NCBI GenBank assembly: GCA_029948255.1
Contig: JALIZF010001748.1
Span: forward strand, 621,289-685,288
Source: Telmatactis stephensoni
Lineage: Eukaryota > Cnidaria > Anthozoa > Actiniaria > Isophelliidae
Length of the DNA stretch: 64,000 bases
Direction of reading: 5' to 3'
Part shown: positions 8,439 to 63,393 of the stretch, in pieces
How positions within the stretch are numbered: the stretch's first letter is position 1
Layout of the letters: each line of letters begins with the position of its first letter
Program-made: the position numbers and the translations under genes
The notes under the pieces: generated by a model
What the model was told of the DNA's origin: nothing
Database searches by the model: none
What the model saw: the letters and a program-made list of their open reading frames with translations, nothing else

Positions 8439-8751
<313 letters not shown>

Positions 8752-38136: not shown

Positions 38137-38440
38137 TAGGAACTTTCGTCTAAAACTTTTCTAAAAACGGTAGAATTAGATGAAAAAAGTTAATTTTGTG
38201 AAAATTTTCAAACAAGAATCGAAGAGAACTTGCCTCACTCCTTCCAGCTTTGTGTCTTGCCCCAAATGACTAACCGCGCCAACGTGCATACCTTTCAAGT
38301 GCACATTCCTTCGTGGTACAGGGTTTTAACCAATCACAGGCTTAGAAAAATTGGACGTTTCACCAGGAACCAATCAAAATCAAGGACGTGAGATTTGATT
38401 GGCAGGAGAAGTAAATGAAGGGGTGGACGAGGATCTTTAA

Positions 38441-40410
38441 GGTGACTCCCTATAGTAATTTTTGGACCAAACCGTTCACTTTTATTTGCCTTGTTTATAG
38501 CTTTAATCCGCAGCTATCGATTTGATATTGATACCAGCTATAGAGGTAAGATGAAAGTTTTCAATTATGGCAGTTTTAATATGATCAGCGTTACCATGGC
38601 AACGATAAACAATTATCGTTGAAATTGGTTTTTGCTAAATATCTCAAAAACCTGACCTGCTCGGGACAAGCGGTAAACGACATCATTAACTTCAAGCTAA
38701 GGCAAAGCAAATTAGACTATCTTAAAGAAATTCAATCTGTTTGATTTCGAGTAATTTGCAGAAATATTCTGAAGCATTCATTTTTATATGCTAAAAGTCA
38801 CGACCGCCCAAACGTTACTCAGAAGACGTGAAACACCAACAAAACACCGTAAAGAAGCCTTTGCTTGTACACTTCAAAGTGGCGAAATGGTTATTCTTAA
38901 CTCTCTTCCAAAGCGAAGATATCACTTTTTCTTTACAGGCAATTTTTGATAAACATTGCCGTAACATCTATTTCAAAATTATTTCCAAAATATCTCTCAA
39001 ACGACTTAATATTTTTGCTTGATATGCTAGGAGTGTATTTATTATTATCTTCGAAACAACATTTGAAAATCCCATTAAGATTGAAACAGTAAAACATTTT
39101 TAAATTCATCGTTAAAGATGACCTACAAATGAACCACAACTCCAGAATGCAAACGGCCGCAATAGCACTTCATTAGCATACTGACACCACGCGCGAAGCT
39201 TGGAGACTCGTTAGCATAACAAGGCAGGCGATTCACAATTCCCGCCAAAACCATACCAATTTGAAAGTTGTAATAAAGCATAATAGTCTAAGTGTGCATA
39301 TTTAGACTTACCATAGTAAGCGTAATGTAATGGTGAACCGACGTTTATCAAAGTAGCTGATAATTATTATTCAACTTGACATTTTCGATTCGTTCATTTG
39401 CGCGTGCATTCTTTCTCTCACGTGGCGAGTTGGATGTAGCGGTAGTTTTAATCGTGCTGCCAAATAAAAGTTATAGACGAAAAACTAATAGAAAAAATGC
39501 ACTAGAAAGAAATAGAGAGAAACGCTGGCAACAGAAGTCTGAGGCTACTGGTTCAAATATTGAAATAATAAATTATTCTTTTCTTCTTCTCTTTTAATCG
39601 TGACTTTTTGTTTACATTCTTTCGTCTTTCAGCTATTTTCATTGCAAGCTTCGCGCGTGGTGTCAGTATGCTAGCTGATGAAGTGCTATTGCGGCCGTTT
39701 GCATTCTGGAGTTGTGGTTCATTTGTAGGTCATCTTTAACGATGAATTTAAAAATGTTTTACTGTTTCAATCTTAATGGGATTTTCAAATGTTGTTTCGA
39801 AGATGATAATGAATACACTCCTAGCATATCAAGCAAAAATACTAAGTCGTTTGAGAGATATTTTGGAAATAATTTTGAAATAGATGTTACGGCAATGTTT
39901 ATCAAAAATTGCCTGTAAAGAAAAAGTGATATCTTCGCTTTGGAAGAGAGTTAAGAATAACCATTTCGCCACTTTGAAGTGTACAAGCAAAGGCTTCTTT
40001 ACGGTGTTTTGTTGGTGTTTCACGTCTTCTGAGTAACGTTTGGGCGGTCGTGACTTTTAGCATATAAAAATGAATGCTTCAGAATATTTCTGCAAATTAC
40101 TCGAAATCAAACAGATTGAATTTCTTTAAGATAGTCTAATTTGCTTTGCCTTAGCTTGAAGTTAATGATGTCGTTTACCGCTTGTCCCGAGCAGGTCAGG
40201 TTTTTGAGATATTTAGCAAAAACCAATTTCAACGATAATTGTTTATCGTTGCCATGGTAACGCTGATCATATTAAAACTGCCATAATTGAAAACTTTCAT
40301 CTTACCTCTATAGCTGGTATCAATATCAAATCGATAGCTGCGGATTAAAGCTATAAACAAGGCAAATAAAAGTGAACGGTTTGGTCCAAAAATTACTATA
40401 GGGAGTCACC
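38441..40410. mobile_element. Giant foldback element (1.97 kb) with TTAA target site
   Basis: TTAA at 38437-38440 and 40411-40414 bounds inverted ends GGTGACTCCCTATAGTAATT and the mirror AATTACTATAGGGAGTCACC. The arms run about 38441-39201 and 39645-40410, roughly 760 bp each, and differ at only a few visible positions. The same peptides therefore appear on opposite strands, for example MWFICRSSLTMNLKMF at 39139 (-) and 39712 (+). The unique centre is about 440 bp. There is no transposase. The TTAA target suggests mobilisation by a piggyBac-type transposase. Confidence 0.93.
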
Positions 40411-40414
40411 TTAA

Positions 40415-42127: not shown

Positions 42128-42770
42128 TCACTCAAAGACGACTGGTAGCTCTACTGAAAAACTCGACCGAGCCACCTTAAGGTTGTAACTTGGTGATGTA
42201 AGTAAACACTTGTCAGCAGACCTTAGATGTCGTTTTGGTTTGTAGAGATATAGCAACTCTTTCAGGTAGTGAAAATCCACACGCTTATCACGGCTATTGG
42301 TAGCCAGTGTAATTCCATTAGCAATCAGGTGTAACATGTTTTGACTTTCGTGCATGACAGGGCCGTGATCAGTCTTGCTGCACTGTTTAAGACATACTGG
42401 AGACGTTGTAGTAAGTGTTTGGGTAAGCCATAATACAATGAGTTACAATTGTCAAGCTTCGCTGTGACAAAAGCAGGCACCAAAGTCTTCGTGGCAACAT
42501 AAGAAGAATGCTGATTTACATACTTGAGCTATGTGCTTATCCAGAGAAACAGTAGTGTCGAATATTGTTCCAATATTCCTTGCACAATCAGAGGGTACCA
42601 CAGATGCATTTGCTACTTGGAGACAGTCCAGAAACGGAGCAGGGCGGTGCTTGGCATGGAAGACGAGGATTTCTGTCTTGTCGTCGTGAAGTTTTAAACT
42701 ATTTTCCAACATCCATGTGTCGATGTCACGTACATGCACATTCTTCTAGCTTAGACTTTGCATGTTGAAT
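42128..42770 (-). pseudogene. Non-LTR retrotransposon reverse transcriptase remnant
   Basis: On the minus strand the conceptual product carries DIDTWMLENSLKLHDDKTEI, then NIGTIFDTTVSLDKHIAQVC with KSAFF, then after a frame change TAKLDNCNSLYYGLPKHLLQ with RLQYVLNSAARLI. After another frame change it shows LKELLYLYKPKRHLRSADK. This is the standard order of the reverse-transcriptase thumb/C-terminal region of CR1/L2-like LINEs. At least two frameshifts and the absence of the catalytic core and endonuclease make it a dead 5'-truncated fragment. Confidence 0.88.
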
Positions 42771-47043: not shown

Positions 47044-47050
47044 TATAAAA
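47044..47050 (+). promoter_or_regulatory. TATA box of the neuropeptide gene
   Basis: TATAAAA ends 46 bp before the ATG at 47097. A start about 25-30 bp downstream would leave a 5' UTR of only 20 nt or so. Confidence 0.6.
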
Positions 47051-47096: not shown

Positions 47097-50000
47097 ATGG
47101 AATCAACGAGTTTGTCTCTACTGTTGTTCTTTTTCTTTCTCTGCAGCTCTTCAGCTAAACCAAGTAAGTTTGCTTCATGAAATTCACTCCGAGAAACTTT
47201 TCTTAAGTTTTTTTTACTTGCTTTCTCTCAACAGTTTATAAATCATTTAATATTCCGGAGGAGTGGCGGACCAGTGTTGTGGAGAGAAGCCCTAACATCA
47301 ACGTAAGCAAAAATACATTTAAAATCGAGTTCTAGATCCGTAGTCCTTGAACTTTATTTGGTGTAGGGATATGATATTTGTTAATTTTTGAGCCGAAATT
47401 TGTTTAATTAAATTCTCATTAGAATTCAGTTGCTAATAGAGGAAAGAATGCTTTCAGTAGACAGAGTAGAATTCTCTGGTCGGTTAAGACGAGAAATCAC
47501 TTGGATTCGAACACTTATCTGACGCATTCTTTGTTTTCCTTCAGTGCAGCTCGAGGGGTCTGTGTTGTTTGCTTGTCTGTTGTTTGTAAGCGTCGCGATT
47601 GGCAGTCTCCTTTACAACGGACAACGCGATTGGAGGCATTTTAAAACAAATTGAGATTACTGTTTGCTTGTGTTGAATTCTCTAACGAACTATTTTCCTT
47701 TCTCAAAATCAAAGCAATTGAATGTTTTTATAGATTGATTTTAATTCTATGAATGATCTTAATTGAAATTATAAAAGAGCGGGAAATGTTCGGTGTATGA
47801 AATTTGATAACGGTAGAAATTTGATGTCATACAGATCAGACCCATTTATAAGAACATATCAGTATGCCGATCAAAATCATATTTCTGCGTATATTTTTTC
47901 TAATTTTCAATTTTTAATGCAACAAGCGAATTTCCCCATGACAATTTATTTAGAAAATTATATGACTTTAATAATATCAATTTATATAAATATCGCGTTC
48001 ATTATCTTTATTTGAGGTCACAAATGCATATTTCAAAAAACCGCCCAAAAATTCAAAACTTTTTCATCTTTGAACCGTAGAAAATGAATTGAATTTATCA
48101 CGGCGGGGATGCTCAATGCCCTTAGCGAAATCATTTAGGCGTATCAGTGTATATCAAACGACGATTAATTAGGAACATACTCCAGCGCTTTCCCGCTCTC
48201 TGTTTGCAATTGACTGGTTGACCTCATGTTATATAACACCAATGACTCAATGCTTGTATGTAATAGGTCTTCTTTTGGCGCCAAAAGTGAATTAAGCTTA
48301 GGATAAGTTAAAATAGCTAAACATGTTTTCTGAAGTGACCTCATTAAACTTAATTATTTAAATTAATAGTACTATTTTCTTAATTAATGTACATCAAATA
48401 CAAAAATGGGGGAAAAAAAAAAAAAGAAACAAGCAAACAAAAGAAATTGTAACTGCCTAAAAATTACATTATATACGAATCTTTGTATTCCTTAGGTTTT
48501 TTTAATTCTTCAGTTAAACATGCGCTCTTTCCTAGCTGACTAGCTTTCTATACGCCTACACACATTCTTAAGAATTCGTTACTGAGTTTAATGTAAATAT
48601 ACTTTAATAGATTATGAAAGCGCGCGGCGTCCTGCCAAAATCAATGAACATGATATGTCTCAAATGTCGAAATGCTGGCCACCCGGGGTTGCAGGCCGGT
48701 TAATTGAATTTTGACTTCGACAATTTATATTTGCTGTCGGGTGAAGGGTAGTAGGGTGAGTAGAGTAGGTAAGGTATATAGGTTAGGGAAAAAGGGGCAT
48801 AAAAATTTGTTTGCCAAAGATGAAAATCAAAGAGAAATATTGTTGATTCACTTCTTTATCGAATTATTTAATTTTATTTGTTATGTAAAATGACAATCGA
48901 TTTGAAAGTGTAGTTTTGAGACGACGCAGGACTACAGCGTGACGTCATCAGACCACTCCCTTATTTGTATGTTTTTAATCAGGACAGTGAATATAAAAAG
49001 TCAAATTAGATTAACTTCTTGATCGAATTTGTTCATTTTATTTGTTTGTTGTGTAAAATGACAATCGATTTGAAAGTGTAGTTTTGAGACGACGCAGGAC
49101 TACAGCGTGACGTCATCAGACCACTCCCTTATTTGTATGCTTAATGTTTTTAATCAGAACAGTGAACATAAATTGTCGCAAGTCGAATTAGATTAACTTC
49201 TTGTATGGTCAAATTATTTCATTCCATTTAGCCACATAAAGACGATTGATTTGAAAGTCCAGGGGCCGGTTGTACGAAGGGTGAATAGCGCTATCCAGCG
49301 GATAAATCCTTATCCAGCGGATAAAATCTATACAGTGAATAACTCTTATCCGGTGGATAACTTTATCCAACCTTCGTACAACCGGGCCCAGTTCGGTTAT
49401 GACACGGCGCAGGATTACTGCGTGATGCTATAAAACCAATCACGCTTTCTCCCACTCACTCCGAACTCATCACGTAGGCGTTACGAGGCTAAGATCGAAT
49501 GTCATACGTTTTACAATCCGAACAAGGAGGTGGACAGAACCATTTATATGTTTTTTCAGATGAACCCCGTAGAGAACTGGACATGTGTCGCAGGTTCGAG
49601 GCGCCCGGATTTTCATGTTGTTGCGAACCGAAAAGACTCACGTAAACGTATAAATAGCCTGCGTAGCAAACGTTTTTTATGTGAAAGGGAGATTGGGTTT
49701 CCTGTGTATCCAAACCCTGCTTTTCGTAACACAGGAAACCCAATCCCCTTTAAACCCCATTTTCTCAAAGAAACGCTTCCTACGCAGGCTGACACGAGCG
49801 AAAAACGTATTGCGCATGCTCGAAAATTCGGCGGGAATTTGTGGACGCGTTCGAGTTTACAAATAAAAGTACCGTCGATTCAACTGTCGTGTATTATGCG
49901 AATTTCTCGTGTATTGTTTCACCAGGGAAAGAGAACAACTAAAGCATTGTTTTAGGAAAAAAAACATTTAGTCAAGGCGCATTTTCGAAAAATCAGATAC

Positions 50001-53000
50001 CTGGAGGCATTTTGGGGTAGAGGCTGGTAACATAACTATTCTAAACCGATTTTTCATGCTGAATGCGAATATGACTGTTACCAAGACGTATTCTGCAATC
50101 TTATACGTGTAAATGACGTATTTTGTGAATTGCTACAGTCATTTCTACTAACGGCTTTTTCATGTAATTCCAAAAGCTCCCAAACTTAAAAACAATTACC
50201 ATAGCTGGAAAGAGCATATCAAAATCAGCAAAACTGTGAAGTTTAAAGGATATCAGTTGAAAAATCAAGGAGATACGAATTTTCAAAAAACGAAATTTTG
50301 TATGAAAACACTTACAGTTATGCAAGAGATACTAACAAATTTCGATTTTTGAAAATTCGTATCTCCTTCAGTTTTCAACTGATATCCTTCAAACTTCACA
50401 GTTTTGCTGATTTTGATATGCTCTTTCCAGCTATGGTAATTGTTTTTAAGTTTGGGAACTTTTGAAATTACATGAAAAAGCCGTTAGTATGAAATGACTG
50501 TAGCAATTCACAAAATACGTCATTTACACGTATAAGATTGCAGAATACGTCTTGGTAACAGTCATATTCGCATTCAGCATGAAAAATCGGTTTAGAATAG
50601 TTATGTTACCAGCCTCTACCCCAAAATGCCTTCTGCACTTTTTGCGATCGACTTTTTCAGTTTTGCGCCTTGTCTAATTAACTTCTCACGGACAACATCA
50701 ACTTTCAAGATTTACTAAACCTCCAATAGTTTTTATCAAGAGACCATAATACTAAGAGAGCGAAACTCAGTATTGATGTCTGTGCGATGTTCGTGGCGGC
50801 TAAGGCTGTTTTTAGTAACTTCGCCATCGCGCGCGCAAGGTTCTTAAACAATAGAATTCAAAGCCGAAACCAAGGAGGGGCCGAAACCAAACAGTCCCGT
50901 CCGCGCGCACGTCAAAAATCAAATTCTATTGGTTGAGGGCCTTGCGCGCGCGATGGCGAAGTTACTAAAAATAGGCTTAGTCGCCGCGAACATCGCACAG
51001 ACATCAATGCTGAGTTTCGCTCTCTTAGTATTATGGTCTCTTGATTTTATTTAAAACCTCCGAGCATGCGCAATGCATTTTTCAGCCCTGTCACGCAGGC
51101 TAATTAACGTATAAATGCATTCTCATCGCGATCTCCATGTAAACGTTACTACCCGAAAATAAAGTATACCGTCGGCCCTTAATGGACTGCAGTCCAGGAA
51201 ACAATCGCTTATGATAAAACAGCCTCAATTTTCTTAATTCTCTCTAAAATTACCACTAGCTTTACTGGTGATTCTTGAAGTGCGCGCAATTTTCAATTTC
51301 TAGAATCCATGTTTTTGTCTTAGTTTATTCGATATACGTAGCCTGCGTAATGGGCTCTAATGGGGGAGAGGGGAGGGAAGGGACTGGATACTCCCTTCCA
51401 TTCCCCTCCCCTCCCCTCTCCCCACCCTCAGAGTTTGATGACCACGTACGGTTCGTTATTGGCGTGACGTTGCGTTATTAATCACTATCTGGGAGCCAAA
51501 TCTCTGGCACCCAGGATAAGACTGAGTACGTACGTGCGCTCTCGTACGTCTGTACGTTTTTCCATCTGGACTCGATATATACATATGTATGGAAAAACAG
51601 GCCCTAGGAATACGCGGTATGATAAATTTCACATACCCCTGGAGTAATGTTTCGTTGGTGTGTCTGAAAAAAGAGTTTTACTTGTTATTTTCAGAATGAC
51701 GTTAACTATGAAGAAAACCCCTTTGATGAACATGAAATACAAAAGAGATTTGTTTATGGAAATGGTAAGCGATCCCGCCATGCTTCCACGGAAAACCATG
51801 AAATGACCACGGAAAACGATCTTGTAAAAAGACTTGTATATGAACTAAAGGGGAAACGGTCGCCCAGTACTGCAAAGAAAGTTCAAGAATGGATAACAAA
51901 TGATCTAGAAAAGAGGTTTGTTTATGGAAATGGAAAACGATCCCGCCATGCTGCCACAGAAAACCATGAAACGGTTGCAGACGATCTTGTAAAAAGATTT
52001 GTGTACGGAAATGGAAAACGATCGCCCTTCCCTGCTACTGAAGACGACGATGATCTGGAAAAGAGATTTGTCTACGGAAATGGGAAACGATCTCACCAAA
52101 TTGCCACGGAAAACCAAGATGAAATGGAAAAGAGATTTGTCTACGGAAATGGAAAACGATCTTATCATCCTGCCACGGAAAACCAAGATGAAATCGAAAA
52201 GAGATTTGTCTACGGAAATGGAAAACGATCTTACCATGCTGCCACGGAAAACCAAGATGAAATGGAAAAGAGATTTGTCTACGGAAATGGAAAACGCTCC
52301 CACCAAGTTGCCACGGAAAACCAAGATGGAATGGAAAAGAGATTTGTCTACGGAAATGGAAAACGATCTTACCATGCTGCCACGGAAAACCAAGATGGAA
52401 TGGAAAAGAGATTTGTCTACGGAAATGGAAAACGATCTCGCCATGCTGCCACGGAAAACCAAGATGGAATGGAAAAGAGATTTGTCTACGGAAATGGAAA
52501 ACGATCTCGCCATGCTGCCACGGAAAACCAAGATGGAATGGAAAAGAGATTTGTCTACGGAAATGGAAAACGATCTCGCCATGCTGCAACGGAAAACCAA
52601 GATGAAATGGAAAAGAGATTTGTCTACGGAAATGGAAAACGATCTCGCCACGCTGCCACGGAAAACCACGATGAAATCGAAAAGCGATTTGTCTACGGAA
52701 ATGGGAAACGATCTCACCATGCTGCCACGGAAAACCAAGATGGAATGGAAAAGAGATTTGTCTACGGAAATGGAAAACGATCCAACCACGCTGCCACGGA
52801 AAACCACGATGAAATCGAAAAGCGATTTGTCTACGGAAATGGGAAACGATCTCACCATGCTGCCACGGAAAACCAAGATGGAATGGAAAAGAGATTTGTC
52901 TACGGAAATGGAAAACGATCCAACCATGCTGCCACGGAAAACCAAGATGGAATGGAAAAGAGATTTGTCTACGGAAATGGAAAACGATCCAACCATGCTG

Positions 53001-53251
53001 CCACGGAAAACCAAGATGAAATCGAAAAGAGATTTGTCTATGGAAATGGAAAACGATCTCACCATGCTGCCACGGAAGATGGAATGGAAAAGAGATTTGT
53101 CTACGGAAATGGAAAACGATCTAACCATGCTGCCACGGAAAACCAAGATGGGATGGAAAAGAGATTTGTCTACGGAAATGGAAAACGCTCCCATCTGTTA
53201 TCCACTGATAACCACAATACGTTACTGGACATTTCTACAAGGTACGTATAA
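47097..53251 (+). CDS. Neuropeptide precursor, 20 copies of FVYGNGKR (predicts FVYGN-amide)
   Basis: The exons are 47097-47163, 47235-47302 and 51695-53251, with GT/AG junctions and matching phases, giving about 563 residues. Residues 1-20 (MESTSLSLLLFFFFLCSSSA) are a clear signal peptide. A short propeptide follows, then 20 intact FVYGNGKR units and one divergent LVYELKGKR. Each is preceded by KR and followed by KR, with 13-residue acidic spacers of the type SRHAATENQDGME. Known logic of prohormone processing (cleavage at KR, C-terminal glycine as amide donor) predicts FVYGN-NH2, and possibly free spacer peptides. The core FVYGNG is invariant in all 20 while the spacers vary, so the peptide appears selected. 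AG at 53240-53241 followed by GTACGT is a good donor and AG at 53762-53763 an acceptor; splicing there would end the protein at ...ISTR instead of ...ISTRYV. I do not recognise this as one of the named cnidarian families (RFamide, GLWamide, PRGamide). Confidence 0.93.
48843..49450 (+). repeat. Three direct repeats in intron 2 of the neuropeptide gene
   Basis: GACAATCGATTTGAAAGTGT with AGTTTTGAGACGACGCAGGA and CTACAGCGTGACGTCATCAG occurs at 48891 and 49059, period 168. A third, diverged copy from about 49190 is interrupted after GATTTGAAAGT by the MITE at 49262-49389. It resumes with TATGACACGGCGCAGGATTA. Confidence 0.85.
49262..49389. mobile_element. MITE with GGGCCGGTTGTACGAAGG ends
   Basis: GGGGCCGGTTGTACGAAGG mirrors CCTTCGTACAACCGGGCCC, with internal TTATCC(A/G)G(C/T)GGATAA palindromes. 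It sits inside the third copy of a tandem duplication, so the two intact copies show the pre-insertion sequence. Confidence 0.88.
49655..49790. mobile_element. Foldback MITE
   Basis: AGCCTGCGTAGCAAACG and CGCTTCCTACGCAGGCT form the ends. Inside, GGGAGATTGGGTTTCCTGTG mirrors ACACAGGAAACCCAATCCC. It abuts the family C element. Confidence 0.8.
50004..50632. repeat. Near-perfect 300-bp-arm hairpin
   Basis: AGGCATTTTGGGGTAGAGGC at the left mirrors GCCTCTACCCCAAAATGCCT at the right. The arms (50004-50300 and 50335-50632) have few visible mismatches and a loop of about 35 bp. Confidence 0.92.
50735..51045. repeat. Second long hairpin (130-bp arms)
   Basis: ATCAAGAGACCATAATACTA with AGAGAGCGAAACTCAG mirrors CTGAGTTTCGCTCTCTTAGT with ATTATGGTCTCTTGAT. 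The arms include CGCGCGCGATGGCGAAGTTA-type sequence near the loop. Confidence 0.9.
51340..51432. repeat. G-rich/C-rich hairpin
   Basis: GGGGGAGAGGGGAGGGAAGG faces CCCTTCCATTCCCCTCCCCT with CCCCTCTCCCC. It lies about 260 bp before the large neuropeptide exon. Confidence 0.75.
52067..53188 (+). repeat. Coding 69-bp minisatellite in the neuropeptide exon
   Basis: TTTGTCTACGGAAATGG starts at 52067 and every 69 bp thereafter through 53033, then after one 63-bp unit at 53096 and again at 53165: 17 homogenised copies. The three earlier copies (near 51746, 51916 and 52000) have irregular spacing and more divergent spacers. The period is a multiple of 3, so frames on both strands stay open, but only the plus frame with KR sites is meaningful. 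Confidence 0.95.
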
Positions 53252-54052
53252 GAACTGGAAACTCATTACACTGTGACATGCACATTCAACCAAGACCACC
53301 CAAACAATCAAGTTCCCTAGGTACGTCCTAAACAACAGAATGATGGCGAATTTCTTCGTCTTCTTGTCAATCGCGGATGTATAGAGCAAACTTCATGAAC
53401 ATTTGTTTGGGTGCATGGTCTCGAATGGTGTAGTCGCATTGTAATCCTCACCCCCACCCCCCTGAAATTCTGTTTGGACTTGATAAGTTCTCCATTTGGA
53501 CTTAATTTAAAACAAGCGCGTGTTCCGATTTCTAACAATTAAAGCTGAAAAACGAACGAAGTCTTTAACAAAAGTGCAAAAATTAAGCCCGTTTCTGAAA
53601 AGTCAAGGAAAAAACACAAAGTATCTGAATTAAAAGTTGTAGGTTACTGGTTCTATCGCTTGTACCAAAGTTATTTTTTCTTTCAAAATTATGATCTTTT
53701 GAGGACGTACGGTCGTTTTCCATCCTTGTTGCGATTACTAAGTATAACTTATTTATTTTTTAGGTAGACGTAATATCAAATAGCTATGCATACTCCACGC
53801 TTTACGTTACAAGAGACATAGGAGATTATAGAGATTATCAAGCAGCAAATACTAGTTGTAGTTAACCATTCATCGTCAAATGACTGTGATTCAAAATGTA
53901 TGCAAACATTTTTCCGAAGAAAAAATAGCTTCATCTTGATGTAAAAAGATTAGAGGTTAGATCTTTTTTGGGGGAGAGGAATTGACCACACCCCCTATAT
54001 TTCTGAAGTAAATTGACAACGTGAGGGCTAGGGAGTTAGAACAGAAAACCCC
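53252..54052 (+). other. 3' flank of the neuropeptide gene
   Basis: An acceptor (TTATTTTTTAG) at 53753-53763 could open a mostly untranslated last exon from 53764. No clear AATAAA was seen. No other gene. Confidence 0.4.
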
Positions 54053-59938: not shown

Positions 59939-62613
59939 TTAACGATATTCATAGTAGTCACCATTCTCCCTTGAATCTCGGAAATAATCGTCACTATCGT
60001 ACCTGGGCTCCTCTTGGGTATGCTGGTAGTAGTAGTTGCGTTCATAAGGATTATCTTGTCTGTCTTCTGGATACTTTCTCTCTTGTCTGTTATCATACGG
60101 TTGCTCACGAGCCAGGTCTTGTATTTCTTGTAGAGTTTCGTCAACAAGAGTTTCTTCGACAAGTGCACTAGGTTGTTTGTTTGTGTGGTCCCTCAACCAT
60201 TCGATAGCACCTTGTTTGTTAACTTTCATCCAATCTATGTTTGCCTTAATGCTCTCAAAGGCTTGTTCTCCTGCACGTTTGGCAGAGCCAAGGGGACGAG
60301 CATGGAAAAACTCTTTAACCTATGGATTTTGGAATTAATATTTATAATATATTTAAGGAATATAAAACGCGCGCGCACTGTCCCTGTACTGTGATAGTAC
60401 GAGGCGTAGCCGAGTGTTTCTCTTGCTTTTGAAGTGCTCTACATCTTCCAGAGTGTTTATATCACAGTACAGAGACATAAGCAATCGTTTTATATTGCTT
60501 TTATAAAATATTTTCGACGTTTTTTGAGCGAGCCATGTCTCTGTCCTCTGATATAAACATGGAAGCCAGCCAATCAGCGCGCGCGTTATATCTCAAATAT
60601 TTTATAAAAATATTTAAAGTTTTCAGTGCCCACAAGTGATTTGTCTGATTTGTGGTTTAAGGACAGGACATCCAATCACATCAACTGAAATACAAACACA
60701 TTCTAACCTCTTGAAACATGACCTCCGTATTAAAGTGCGATGTGGTTCTCAAGACCAAACGACTGAAGTCAAAGGATCCAGAAGAATATCTGAAAGTTGT
60801 AAAGAATCGAGGCACTCAATTCTATTTCTACACAAGAGTACATATGAAAATCATAAGAGGGAGAAAAGAAAATAATGTGTCACCGGAAAGTGGTACTTTT
60901 TTAGGCTAGAGGTACAGAAAAGGGGAGGAAATTCACGACTTTGGGTATAGGAAAAGAATTTTCAGCAAAGCGTATCACTCAAGCCGAATGCGCATGTACG
61001 TAGTGAGAAATGATTTAAAGTGAGCACGCCTTGCTCGGACTGTAGAATTGTTTTAAATAAACACTCTAAAGATGTTTGAACAATGATTAACCACGATTTA
61101 TTTGGGAGTTTTTAACAGACAATTCAAGACCAGAAACAAAAGTTCATTTTAGCGAATTTTTAGGGACGAAAAATCGTGCATATTTGTCTTGCAAATAATC
61201 GCTTCAAACAAACCGGCTTTTTTGTTAAGTAATTTTCATTTCAACATTTGGCAATGCGATTAACCCGACATAACAAACAATGGCATATAAAAATATTATG
61301 CTGTAAGGGATCTACAGAATGAATTCTATTAGATAGGATAGCTCAAGACGAAGCCAATATGAGCAGCTCCAAGGGCAGAATACCCCATGCACCAAAAATT
61401 TTGAAACCGTTTAATATCCACCTCTTCCATCGAAAAACCAACATGGAGTAATATACAATTGTAAGCTATTACCTGTTAAATAATATTGTCCAATGCTTCT
61501 TAAGAAATTCCCAAGCCAAATCACGCCCATGACAGTTTCCAGCGACTGAATTGATAACAGCCACCGAGTCTTGCGAACGAATTATTGAGTTATTCAAACT
61601 CATGTCCAATATCCTGGGAAAAGATTTGATAGGAATTGAATTACCAATAAAAATGGCTAAAGTGATTTTCCTGACAATATTTTCAAGTTAAAATAACAAA
61701 ACTTGTGTCAGGCTCATAACATGGTATATTTTCGTCTCACTGATCCCGGGTTTTTACAGAAATTTTGATTCCTGAGCCCATATTTTTAGACATTTTTGAT
61801 CCCTGATCCTGGGTGCAAAAAACTGAGCTGATCCCTGATCTTGACCCAATGTCCCTGATCCTCGATCCCACCCATTTGATCCTTGAGCCCTGGCCTCTGA
61901 TCCCTGATCCTGGCCATAATTTGGAGCTTGATCCCTGATCCCATATACCATGTTACGACCCTGTTGTGTATAAATAACAAGAAAATTCACTTGGACCATT
62001 TTTTTGGCCTTCTCTCAATCAGTTCGAAATAGAGTGATCTATAACAGTGATTGCCCACTAGCTTCTTTCCACTGCAATCTAAAATCTTTGAAAACTGTTA
62101 ACCACATGAGATCAGTTCTCTATTTCACTAGTTTGTAAATTTAAACGATAACTGGAATTATGGAAAGACTTTTCTAGTTTATTTTTAAGTTTGGGTTTCT
62201 TACTAAGGTAAAATTTGTGAATAGGCTTTCTGGTATAATCATTCGTCAGAAAACCATGTCTTTACCGGTGAAATAGAGCATAGATTTTGTTGGTCTCTCA
62301 GCCAATCAGAGCGTGTCTTATAATTGAACTATATTATAAATGTACATAGAAAAGGTAACATACCATTATTGAAGGGGTCAAATAGAGAATTGGTAAATGC
62401 AGGGTCATAGTCAACTTGTTTTACGATAAACAAACTATTGAGTACCTTTTAAGTATCCTTAGGTCTTTGGCAGAGGTCAATGCATACATTAGCTTCTTTT
62501 TCTCAGCTGCTACTGTAGCTTTGCGAAATTGTTCCAGGACAAAATCAAAGTTTTCTTCACCACCTTCTTGCACGCCCATAGAGTAGATGGTACCTCGTAG
62601 GTTTGGAGGAACT
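59939..62613 (-). CDS. M1-family aminopeptidase, C-terminal exons (partial)
   Basis: Four phase-matched exons on the minus strand: 62613-62446 (VPPNLRGTIYSMGVQEGGEE... EKKKLMYALTSAKDLRILK), 61613-61473 (ILDMSLNNSIIRSQDSVAVI... WEFLKKHW), 60789-60708 (YSSGSFDFSRLVLRTTSHFN, TEVMFQE) and 60319-59939 (VKEFFHARPLGSAKRAGEQA, FESIKANIDWM, stop). The motifs VPPNLR, GGEE, EKKKL(M/L)YAL, RSQD, and the final FF.ARP.GSAKRA..Q..E.I..NI.W run are the helical ERAP1_C region of alanyl/aminopeptidase-N-like enzymes. The Zn-binding HExxH domain would be encoded by upstream exons beyond the window. After the usual family end the protein runs on about 85 residues, rich in Glu, Asp, Arg, Gln and Tyr, ending DYYEYR. 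Upstream exons between 62614 and 64000 could not be assigned. Confidence 0.92.
60340..60610. repeat. Dispersed repeat with inverted structure
   Basis: AATATATTTAAGGAATATAA with AACGCGCGCGC on the left and GCGCGCGCGTTATATCTCAA with ATATTTTATAAA on the right. It contains ACGAGGCGTAGCCGAG and CTGTACTGTGAT / ATCACAGTACAGAGACAT. A shorter copy lies at 3905-4035. It is in the last intron of the aminopeptidase gene. Confidence 0.7.
61750..61945. repeat. Degenerate TGATCCCTGATCCTGG tandem repeats
   Basis: TGATCCCTGATCC or close variants occur at least six times in about 200 bp, in an aminopeptidase intron. The repeated GIRDQ-like translation on the minus strand is a consequence of the repeat. Confidence 0.85.
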
Positions 62614-63393
62614 CTAATGAAGCAATACAACAATACAAGTTGTTGGTTACAGACACATTCAAACATGTCAAGAAACCTTTAACTTAATAATTAAGAAGGC
62701 CATACAGCAACCACTCATAAGATGAGTTCCCTTCATGGGAAATGCACCAACAACAAGAAATCCTGAGAAAACTTGGAAAATCCAAAATGCCATAATAGGC
62801 CTTTGCAGGACTTGGTTACATGACACAAGACAGAAATATCAGCTTTGATCATAAAATGGACAGCAACATCAGAAAAAGCACCTTCAAATTAACATTTTTC
62901 ATGAGTCTGAGTTCTTCCCCAATACGTCAAAGAAGGCTCAAACCCAGCAAAAACACTGAGTTAAAGATGCTCTTTATCATCATGTCAACCATTTTGCCAT
63001 CAGAGTTGATATTTCAATGACATATCACACGAACTGGTCCTGCAAAGGGCCCATTAAAGCTACAAGTAGCTTACTGAGGCATATGCTCAGGGCTATTTTA
63101 CAAAACTAGTACATAGAGGGAACAAACGTGCTCAATTTTGTTTGATTTGCTTCCAGATCATGATCCCTAATTTCAAATTTCGCATAGCATTTCACAGGGT
63201 CAAAATTCTGCTCCTGAGGAGGAATTATATCGATTACATCTTTGATACACATGAGGAAGCTTTGCTTCAGGAGTATGACCTTAGCGCATGCCCTGAGAGC
63301 AAAACCTTTCATGTATTCTGGCCTTCACTTAAATTCATCGCTGGGCGGCATGTACATGCACATAATGTTGCAGAATGCAGAATCCAACACTGT

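Follow-up and report, generated by a model that had tools for sequence, protein, structure and literature searches.

The window, by which we mean the whole stretch of 64 kb of DNA that was analysed, carries on its + strand a three-exon gene with an array of short repeated peptide cassettes, and on its - strand the exons of an M1 aminopeptidase (aminopeptidase N-like, 59939-62678), which stand tail to tail with the peptide gene. The features of the peptide gene are listed below.

47044-47049, + strand: TATAAA resembling a TATA box, 53 bp before the ATG (consensus match only)
47097-47163, + strand: coding part of exon 1, 67 bp, with the start codon and the signal peptide; donor CCAA/GTAAGT
47097-47156, + strand: signal peptide as predicted from hydropathy and sequence, residues 1-20 (MESTSLSLLLFFFFLCSSSA), with the cut expected after Ala20
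47235-47302, + strand: exon 2, 68 bp; acceptor CTCTCAACAG/TTTA; donor CAAC/GTAAGC
51695-53251, + strand: exon 3, 1557 bp including the stop codon, holding all peptide cassettes; acceptor TTATTTTCAG/AATG
51743-53188, + strand: array of 21 cassettes with KR on both sides, of which 20 are KRFVYGNGKR and one is divergent; the period is 69 bp for the most part
51827-51859, + strand: divergent second cassette KR-LVYELKG-KR, predicted product LVYELK-NH2 (coordinates read off the sequence)
53538-53543, with a second at 53629, + strand: possible poly-A signal ATTAAA (consensus match only)

The frame starts with the ATG at 47097 and its stop codon ends at 53251 on the + strand. Intron 1 (47164-47234, 71 bp) and intron 2 (47303-51694, 4392 bp) both have GT/AG ends, and with the exon junctions predicted from the sequence the three exons join into a frame that is open over 563 codons plus stop and would encode a 563-residue protein. 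The three-exon structure proposed in the preliminary description of this DNA was found again in its exons, introns and open joined frame, and the signal peptide proposed there is present as a hydrophobic N-terminus, as judged from hydropathy and sequence. The Kyte-Doolittle mean over 11 residues rises up to 2.9 within residues 1-20 and is at most 0.45 beyond residue 25. The cut after Ala20 was placed by the (-3,-1) rule, with Ser at -3 and Ala at -1 of a plausible signal peptidase site. The only Cys of the protein lies inside the signal peptide.

Cassettes, spacers and constancy of the peptide core

Splitting the predicted protein at KR gave 43 segments, in which 21 cassettes alternate with 22 other segments. 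Every KR site (42/42) lies next to a cassette, and Gly is the last residue in all 21 cassettes and in none of the 22 other segments. In 2000 shuffles of the protein KR was found 4.2 times on average and at most 11 times, as against 42 in the actual order of residues. The first cassette begins at residue 62, behind KR. KRFVYGNGKR occurs exactly 20 times, a copy number that can reflect the assembly or the allele, as the copies form an array. The preliminary description had counted these 20 cassettes correctly and had missed the 21st, KR-LVYELKG-KR.

The segments between the cassettes are regular. Ser is the first residue in 21 of the 21 segments that follow a cassette, and the 20 internal spacers all have a net charge of -1 to -6 (K, R, D and E only), with Asp or Glu as the last residue in 18 of them. 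The single dibasic site besides KR is one KK, located in the spacer after the divergent LVYELKG cassette. The spacers had been described as variable and acidic; their acidity holds throughout the 20 internal ones, but 16 of these are 13 residues long and most follow one common pattern, which we take as a sign of homogenisation by duplication. At the DNA level the array repeats in tandem with a period of 69 bp for the most part (23 residues; 17.4 copies, 91% matches), and its most diverged units are the first ones. The cassettes start 168, 81, 69 or 63 bp apart, each of these spacings being divisible by three.

When the 64 kb were searched with a degenerate pattern of the core allowing up to 2 mismatches, 20 sites were obtained, all with 0 mismatches and all inside the peptide gene on the + strand, compared with a mean of 0.02 sites in 100 dinucleotide-preserving shuffles. 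An origin of the cassettes as a chance repeat is excluded by the shuffles of the window DNA and of the protein. Other open frames of 427, 430 and 361 residues (antisense or in other frames) were also found over the array. They were rejected as genes, since with a period of 69 bp (3 × 23) any frame free of stops stays open from copy to copy, so that no gene is needed to explain them.

Codon changes were counted in the 20 KRFVYGNGKRS units (11 codons), picked by exact protein match, and in 16 of the 19 intervals between FVYGN cassettes, i.e. the spacers of 13 residues, the three of other length being dropped. The count is the minimal number of changes, obtained column by column by comparing distinct codons with distinct residues. 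In the core units at least 12 synonymous changes and no replacement were counted, while the spacers have 8 synonymous and 16 replacement changes (Fisher p 0.00017). When the LVYELKG cassette was included by hand count (3 further replacement and 2 further synonymous changes, its one-codon insertion left out), the core had 14 synonymous and 3 replacement changes (Fisher p 0.0037). A simple neutral figure for the core, 2.5e-8, takes account of neither transition bias nor gene conversion and is not to be relied upon. The core departs from FVYGN in one of the 21 cassettes, and a large part of the array has arisen by recent duplication; both points, like the choice of units by exact match, tell against the constancy as evidence.

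Predicted processing and stability of the peptide

Taken together with its cassette anatomy, the gene is very probably that of a secreted multi-copy neuropeptide preprohormone with FVYGN-NH2 as the main product, and on sequence grounds it is a genuine, well-formed precursor of amidated peptides, most likely a neural one. FVYGN-NH2 had been named as the product in the preliminary description, and the KR flanks and the terminal Gly of the cassettes support this well. Peptides of this kind are made by signal peptidase, prohormone convertase, carboxypeptidase and peptidylglycine amidating monooxygenase. In the present case signal peptidase would take off the 20-residue signal peptide, prohormone convertase would cleave the 42 Lys-Arg sites, carboxypeptidase would then remove Lys-Arg and expose the glycine, and the monooxygenase would turn this glycine into an amide. 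Each precursor would yield 20 FVYGN-NH2 and possibly one LVYELK-NH2, and the Ser-initiated acidic spacers would be discarded. Released from vesicles, FVYGN-NH2 would most likely act on a peptide GPCR of nearby cells. The calculated [M+H]+ is 598.298 for FVYGN-NH2, 599.282 for a phenyllactyl form and 763.471 for LVYELK-NH2; the first two lie roughly one 13C isotope step apart.

Mass spectrometry in Nematostella, as reported in the main text of PMC11087051, backs N-terminal cuts of the KR-x type, C-terminal cuts of the x-KR type and the conversion of Gly to an amide. Acidic residues also serve as cleavage sites in cnidarians according to the main text of PMC9525235, and the LVYELKG cassette includes a Glu, so the predicted LVYELK product may not arise as written. 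The survey of hexacorals and ceriantharians in 20 species (PMC7523074), as its main text describes it, asked for a signal peptide, at least 3 GKR, GRR or GR processing sites and at least 3 highly similar peptides before such sites. The predicted protein has 21 GKR sites and 20 identical FVYGNG sequences in front of them, and its signal peptide is recognized on hydropathy and sequence only.

The N-terminal Phe of FVYGN is neither a pyroglutamate nor protected by proline. It departs in this from most hexacoral and anthozoan neuropeptides, the N-terminus of which is protected by pQ or Pro according to the main text of PMC7523074, and N-termini in cnidarians are often set by a trimming that halts at Q or Pro (main text of PMC6909153). 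Unprotected anthozoan neuropeptides do exist, e.g. YRPamide (PMC7523074, main text). By analogy, FVYGN-NH2 without such protection should be a short-lived local signal unless its Phe is modified.

Comparison with known peptide families and alternative explanations

The survey in PMC7523074 reports ten peptide families in its main text, seven of which (1-6 and 10) occur in stony corals. None of the ten is a YGN-amide in that text, though the present gene fits the criteria of the survey. The string VYGN is absent from the main texts of PMC7523074, PMC6756747, PMC6909153, PMC6402141, PMC9525235, PMC7042181 and PMC11087051, and YGN, GNamide and FVY were not found in the main text of PMC7523074. 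This search covered the running main texts and as such is weak evidence of absence, and the novelty of the peptide is provisional.

One of the closest known peptides is Antho-RNamide, L-3-phenyllactyl-LRN-amide, described from sea anemones in 1990, whose precursors carry Phe-LRN (PMC7523074, main text); four Nematostella receptors (R26, R187, R197 and R230) are activated by its unmodified form FLRNamide, the EC50 ranging from 4.7E-9 to 7.4E-8 (PMC11087051, main text). As in these peptides, the immature FVYGN peptide starts with Phe and would give an Asn-amide. An Asn-amide C-terminus, which had been called unusual in the preliminary description, is thus already known in anthozoans, and of its suggestion that the peptide may be undescribed only the absence of the peptide from the neuropeptide main texts stands. 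Antho-RNamide lies as a single copy of F-L-R-N directly after the signal peptide, whereas the present precursor has 20 internal copies of F-V-Y-G-N without Arg. Before the amidation and cleavage site we found FVYGN in 20 of the 21 cassettes and LVYELK in one, never F-L-R-N, and the cassettes begin at residue 62, not right behind the signal peptide.

With the precursors of Antho-RFamide, GPRGamide, GLWamide and QITRFamide, as described in the source texts, the protein shares a signal peptide, many near-identical short peptides and Gly before basic sites; unlike them it has the YGN-amide end and no pQ or Pro start. The FVYGN precursor has regular spacers (16/20 of 13 residues); the comparison with these families draws on their published descriptions. 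FHIRamides are likewise amidated hexacoral peptides with several copies per precursor, but they are 14-19 residues long, often with internal acidic residues, and end in HIR-amide (PMC7523074, main text), a length and an end that FVYGN does not have. More generally, the residues before Gly are YGN (20) or ELK (1), and not the C-terminal motif of an RFamide, GLWamide, PRXamide, RPamide, RWamide or HIRamide.

With the exon 3 frame as query, Pfam gave nothing above cut-off and five weak matches at E up to 0.1, none of which passed as a single stretch; PDB likewise gave no match up to E 0.1. The best of the weak Pfam matches, adipokinetic hormone, was rejected at 18.5 bits, below the cut-off of 22.9. 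The cassette pattern had no match in viral contigs and 4 matches in prokaryote genomes, none of them confirmed; both collections are a poor place for an animal gene. The string YGNG also resembles the pediocin box of bacteriocins; the Cys of that box is absent here, and the likeness was set aside as coincidence.

The type of gene is ordinary and well known, and the peptide FVYGN-amide may be new. We propose, at somewhat less than even chance, that FVYGN-amide is either an undescribed lineage-restricted YGN-amide family with its own GPCR, acting as an unprotected, quickly degraded short-range signal, or the first case in which a Phe-initiated, Asn-amidated and possibly phenyllactyl peptide comes from many internal copies. 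Provided that the peptide is produced, it is a further candidate transmitter that falls outside the anthozoan classes with a name, and its N-terminus is of interest for the question of how such peptides are protected. If the gene comes from a hexacoral, that the survey lacks it although it fits the criteria used there would point to a lineage-restricted origin, or to peptides without pQ or Pro having been set aside.

Among the alternatives, the one to be taken most seriously, though we consider it unlikely, is that the family has already been described, be it in the lists of 33 Nematostella proneuropeptides, in coral datasets after 2020 or in another phylum. Fifteen new Nematostella precursors were added in 2024 (PMC11087051, main text), and against this stands the lack of any VYGN in neuropeptide main texts such as PMC7523074 and PMC11087051. 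Another alternative is that non-neural cells secrete the amidated peptide (as a gland, epithelial or defence peptide) and make it by the same processing route, as the processing anatomy tells of secretion and amidation and not of cell type. This explanation appears improbable: many defence peptides and toxins are disulphide-rich, whereas the present protein has 0 cysteines after the signal peptide. Furthermore, RPamide, RNamide, RIamide and RWamide were located in neurons by antibody, only RPamide among them being multi-copy (PMC7523074, main text).

A multi-copy counterpart of Antho-RNamide or FLRNamide, possibly with an N-terminal phenyllactyl and acting on the same receptor class, is slightly more improbable still. 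The initial Phe and the Asn-amide common to both immature peptides argue for it, and phenyllactyl peptides derive from Phe-peptides, none having been found in the scleractinians surveyed (PMC7523074, main text). In the phenyllactyl precursors described in the same text, however, a single Phe-peptide comes directly after the signal peptide; the present precursor has 20 internal copies behind KR, lacks the Arg of LRN and differs in the middle residues. A secreted structural protein of repetitive make-up (matrix or adhesive) with uncut KR would agree with the tandem 69-bp repeat and its 23-residue period, but is very improbable. No KR lies away from the edge of a cassette, and a final Gly stands only in front of the closing KR. 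The replacement changes affect the spacers and spare the 20 matching cores, and the KR...GKR frame is kept even in the divergent LVYELKG cassette.

Neighbouring aminopeptidase gene, intron 2 and the wider window

In the aminopeptidase gene, the frame at 62424-62678 matched Pfam ERAP1_C above cut-off (E 4.7e-14), and the frame at 61472-61687 matched the adjoining part of ERAP1_C with E 2.7e-09 and 37.3 bits, just below the cut-off of 38.2. The frame at 59942-60319 had no Pfam match to E 0.1 and a weak PDB match to the C-terminal end of aminopeptidase N (best E 7.9e-05). The last aminopeptidase frame continues past the PDB matches with a tail of 72-80 residues rich in Tyr, Arg and Asp before it stops. 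A functional link between the aminopeptidase and the peptide gene was considered and dropped, as nothing beyond adjacency speaks for it and we see no reason to link the two.

On the - strand at 42455-42745, a frame resembles by eye a fragment of a retrotransposon reverse transcriptase, with no Pfam match to E 0.01. Intron 2 of the peptide gene contains nested and simple inverted repeats of the hairpin type at 50005-50631 and 50735-51045, with arms of 124-153 nt that are 93-100% complementary. A short repeat array of TATCCAGCGGATAA-like units is located at 49292-49369 in the same intron, within an element at around 49260-49390 that is palindromic by eye. This element may resemble coral genome repeats, which is a lead and not evidence. 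Further upstream, a large inverted repeat (38437-39177 and 39674-40414) has arms of 741 nt that are 99% complementary and 496 nt apart, and is likely a mobile or palindromic element. Near the start of the window, a 185-bp tandem repeat is present in five copies (85-1019, 97% matches), among which lie inverted repeats of 61-77 nt, and a CTCTG pentanucleotide array of 32.8 copies extends over 8488-8651.
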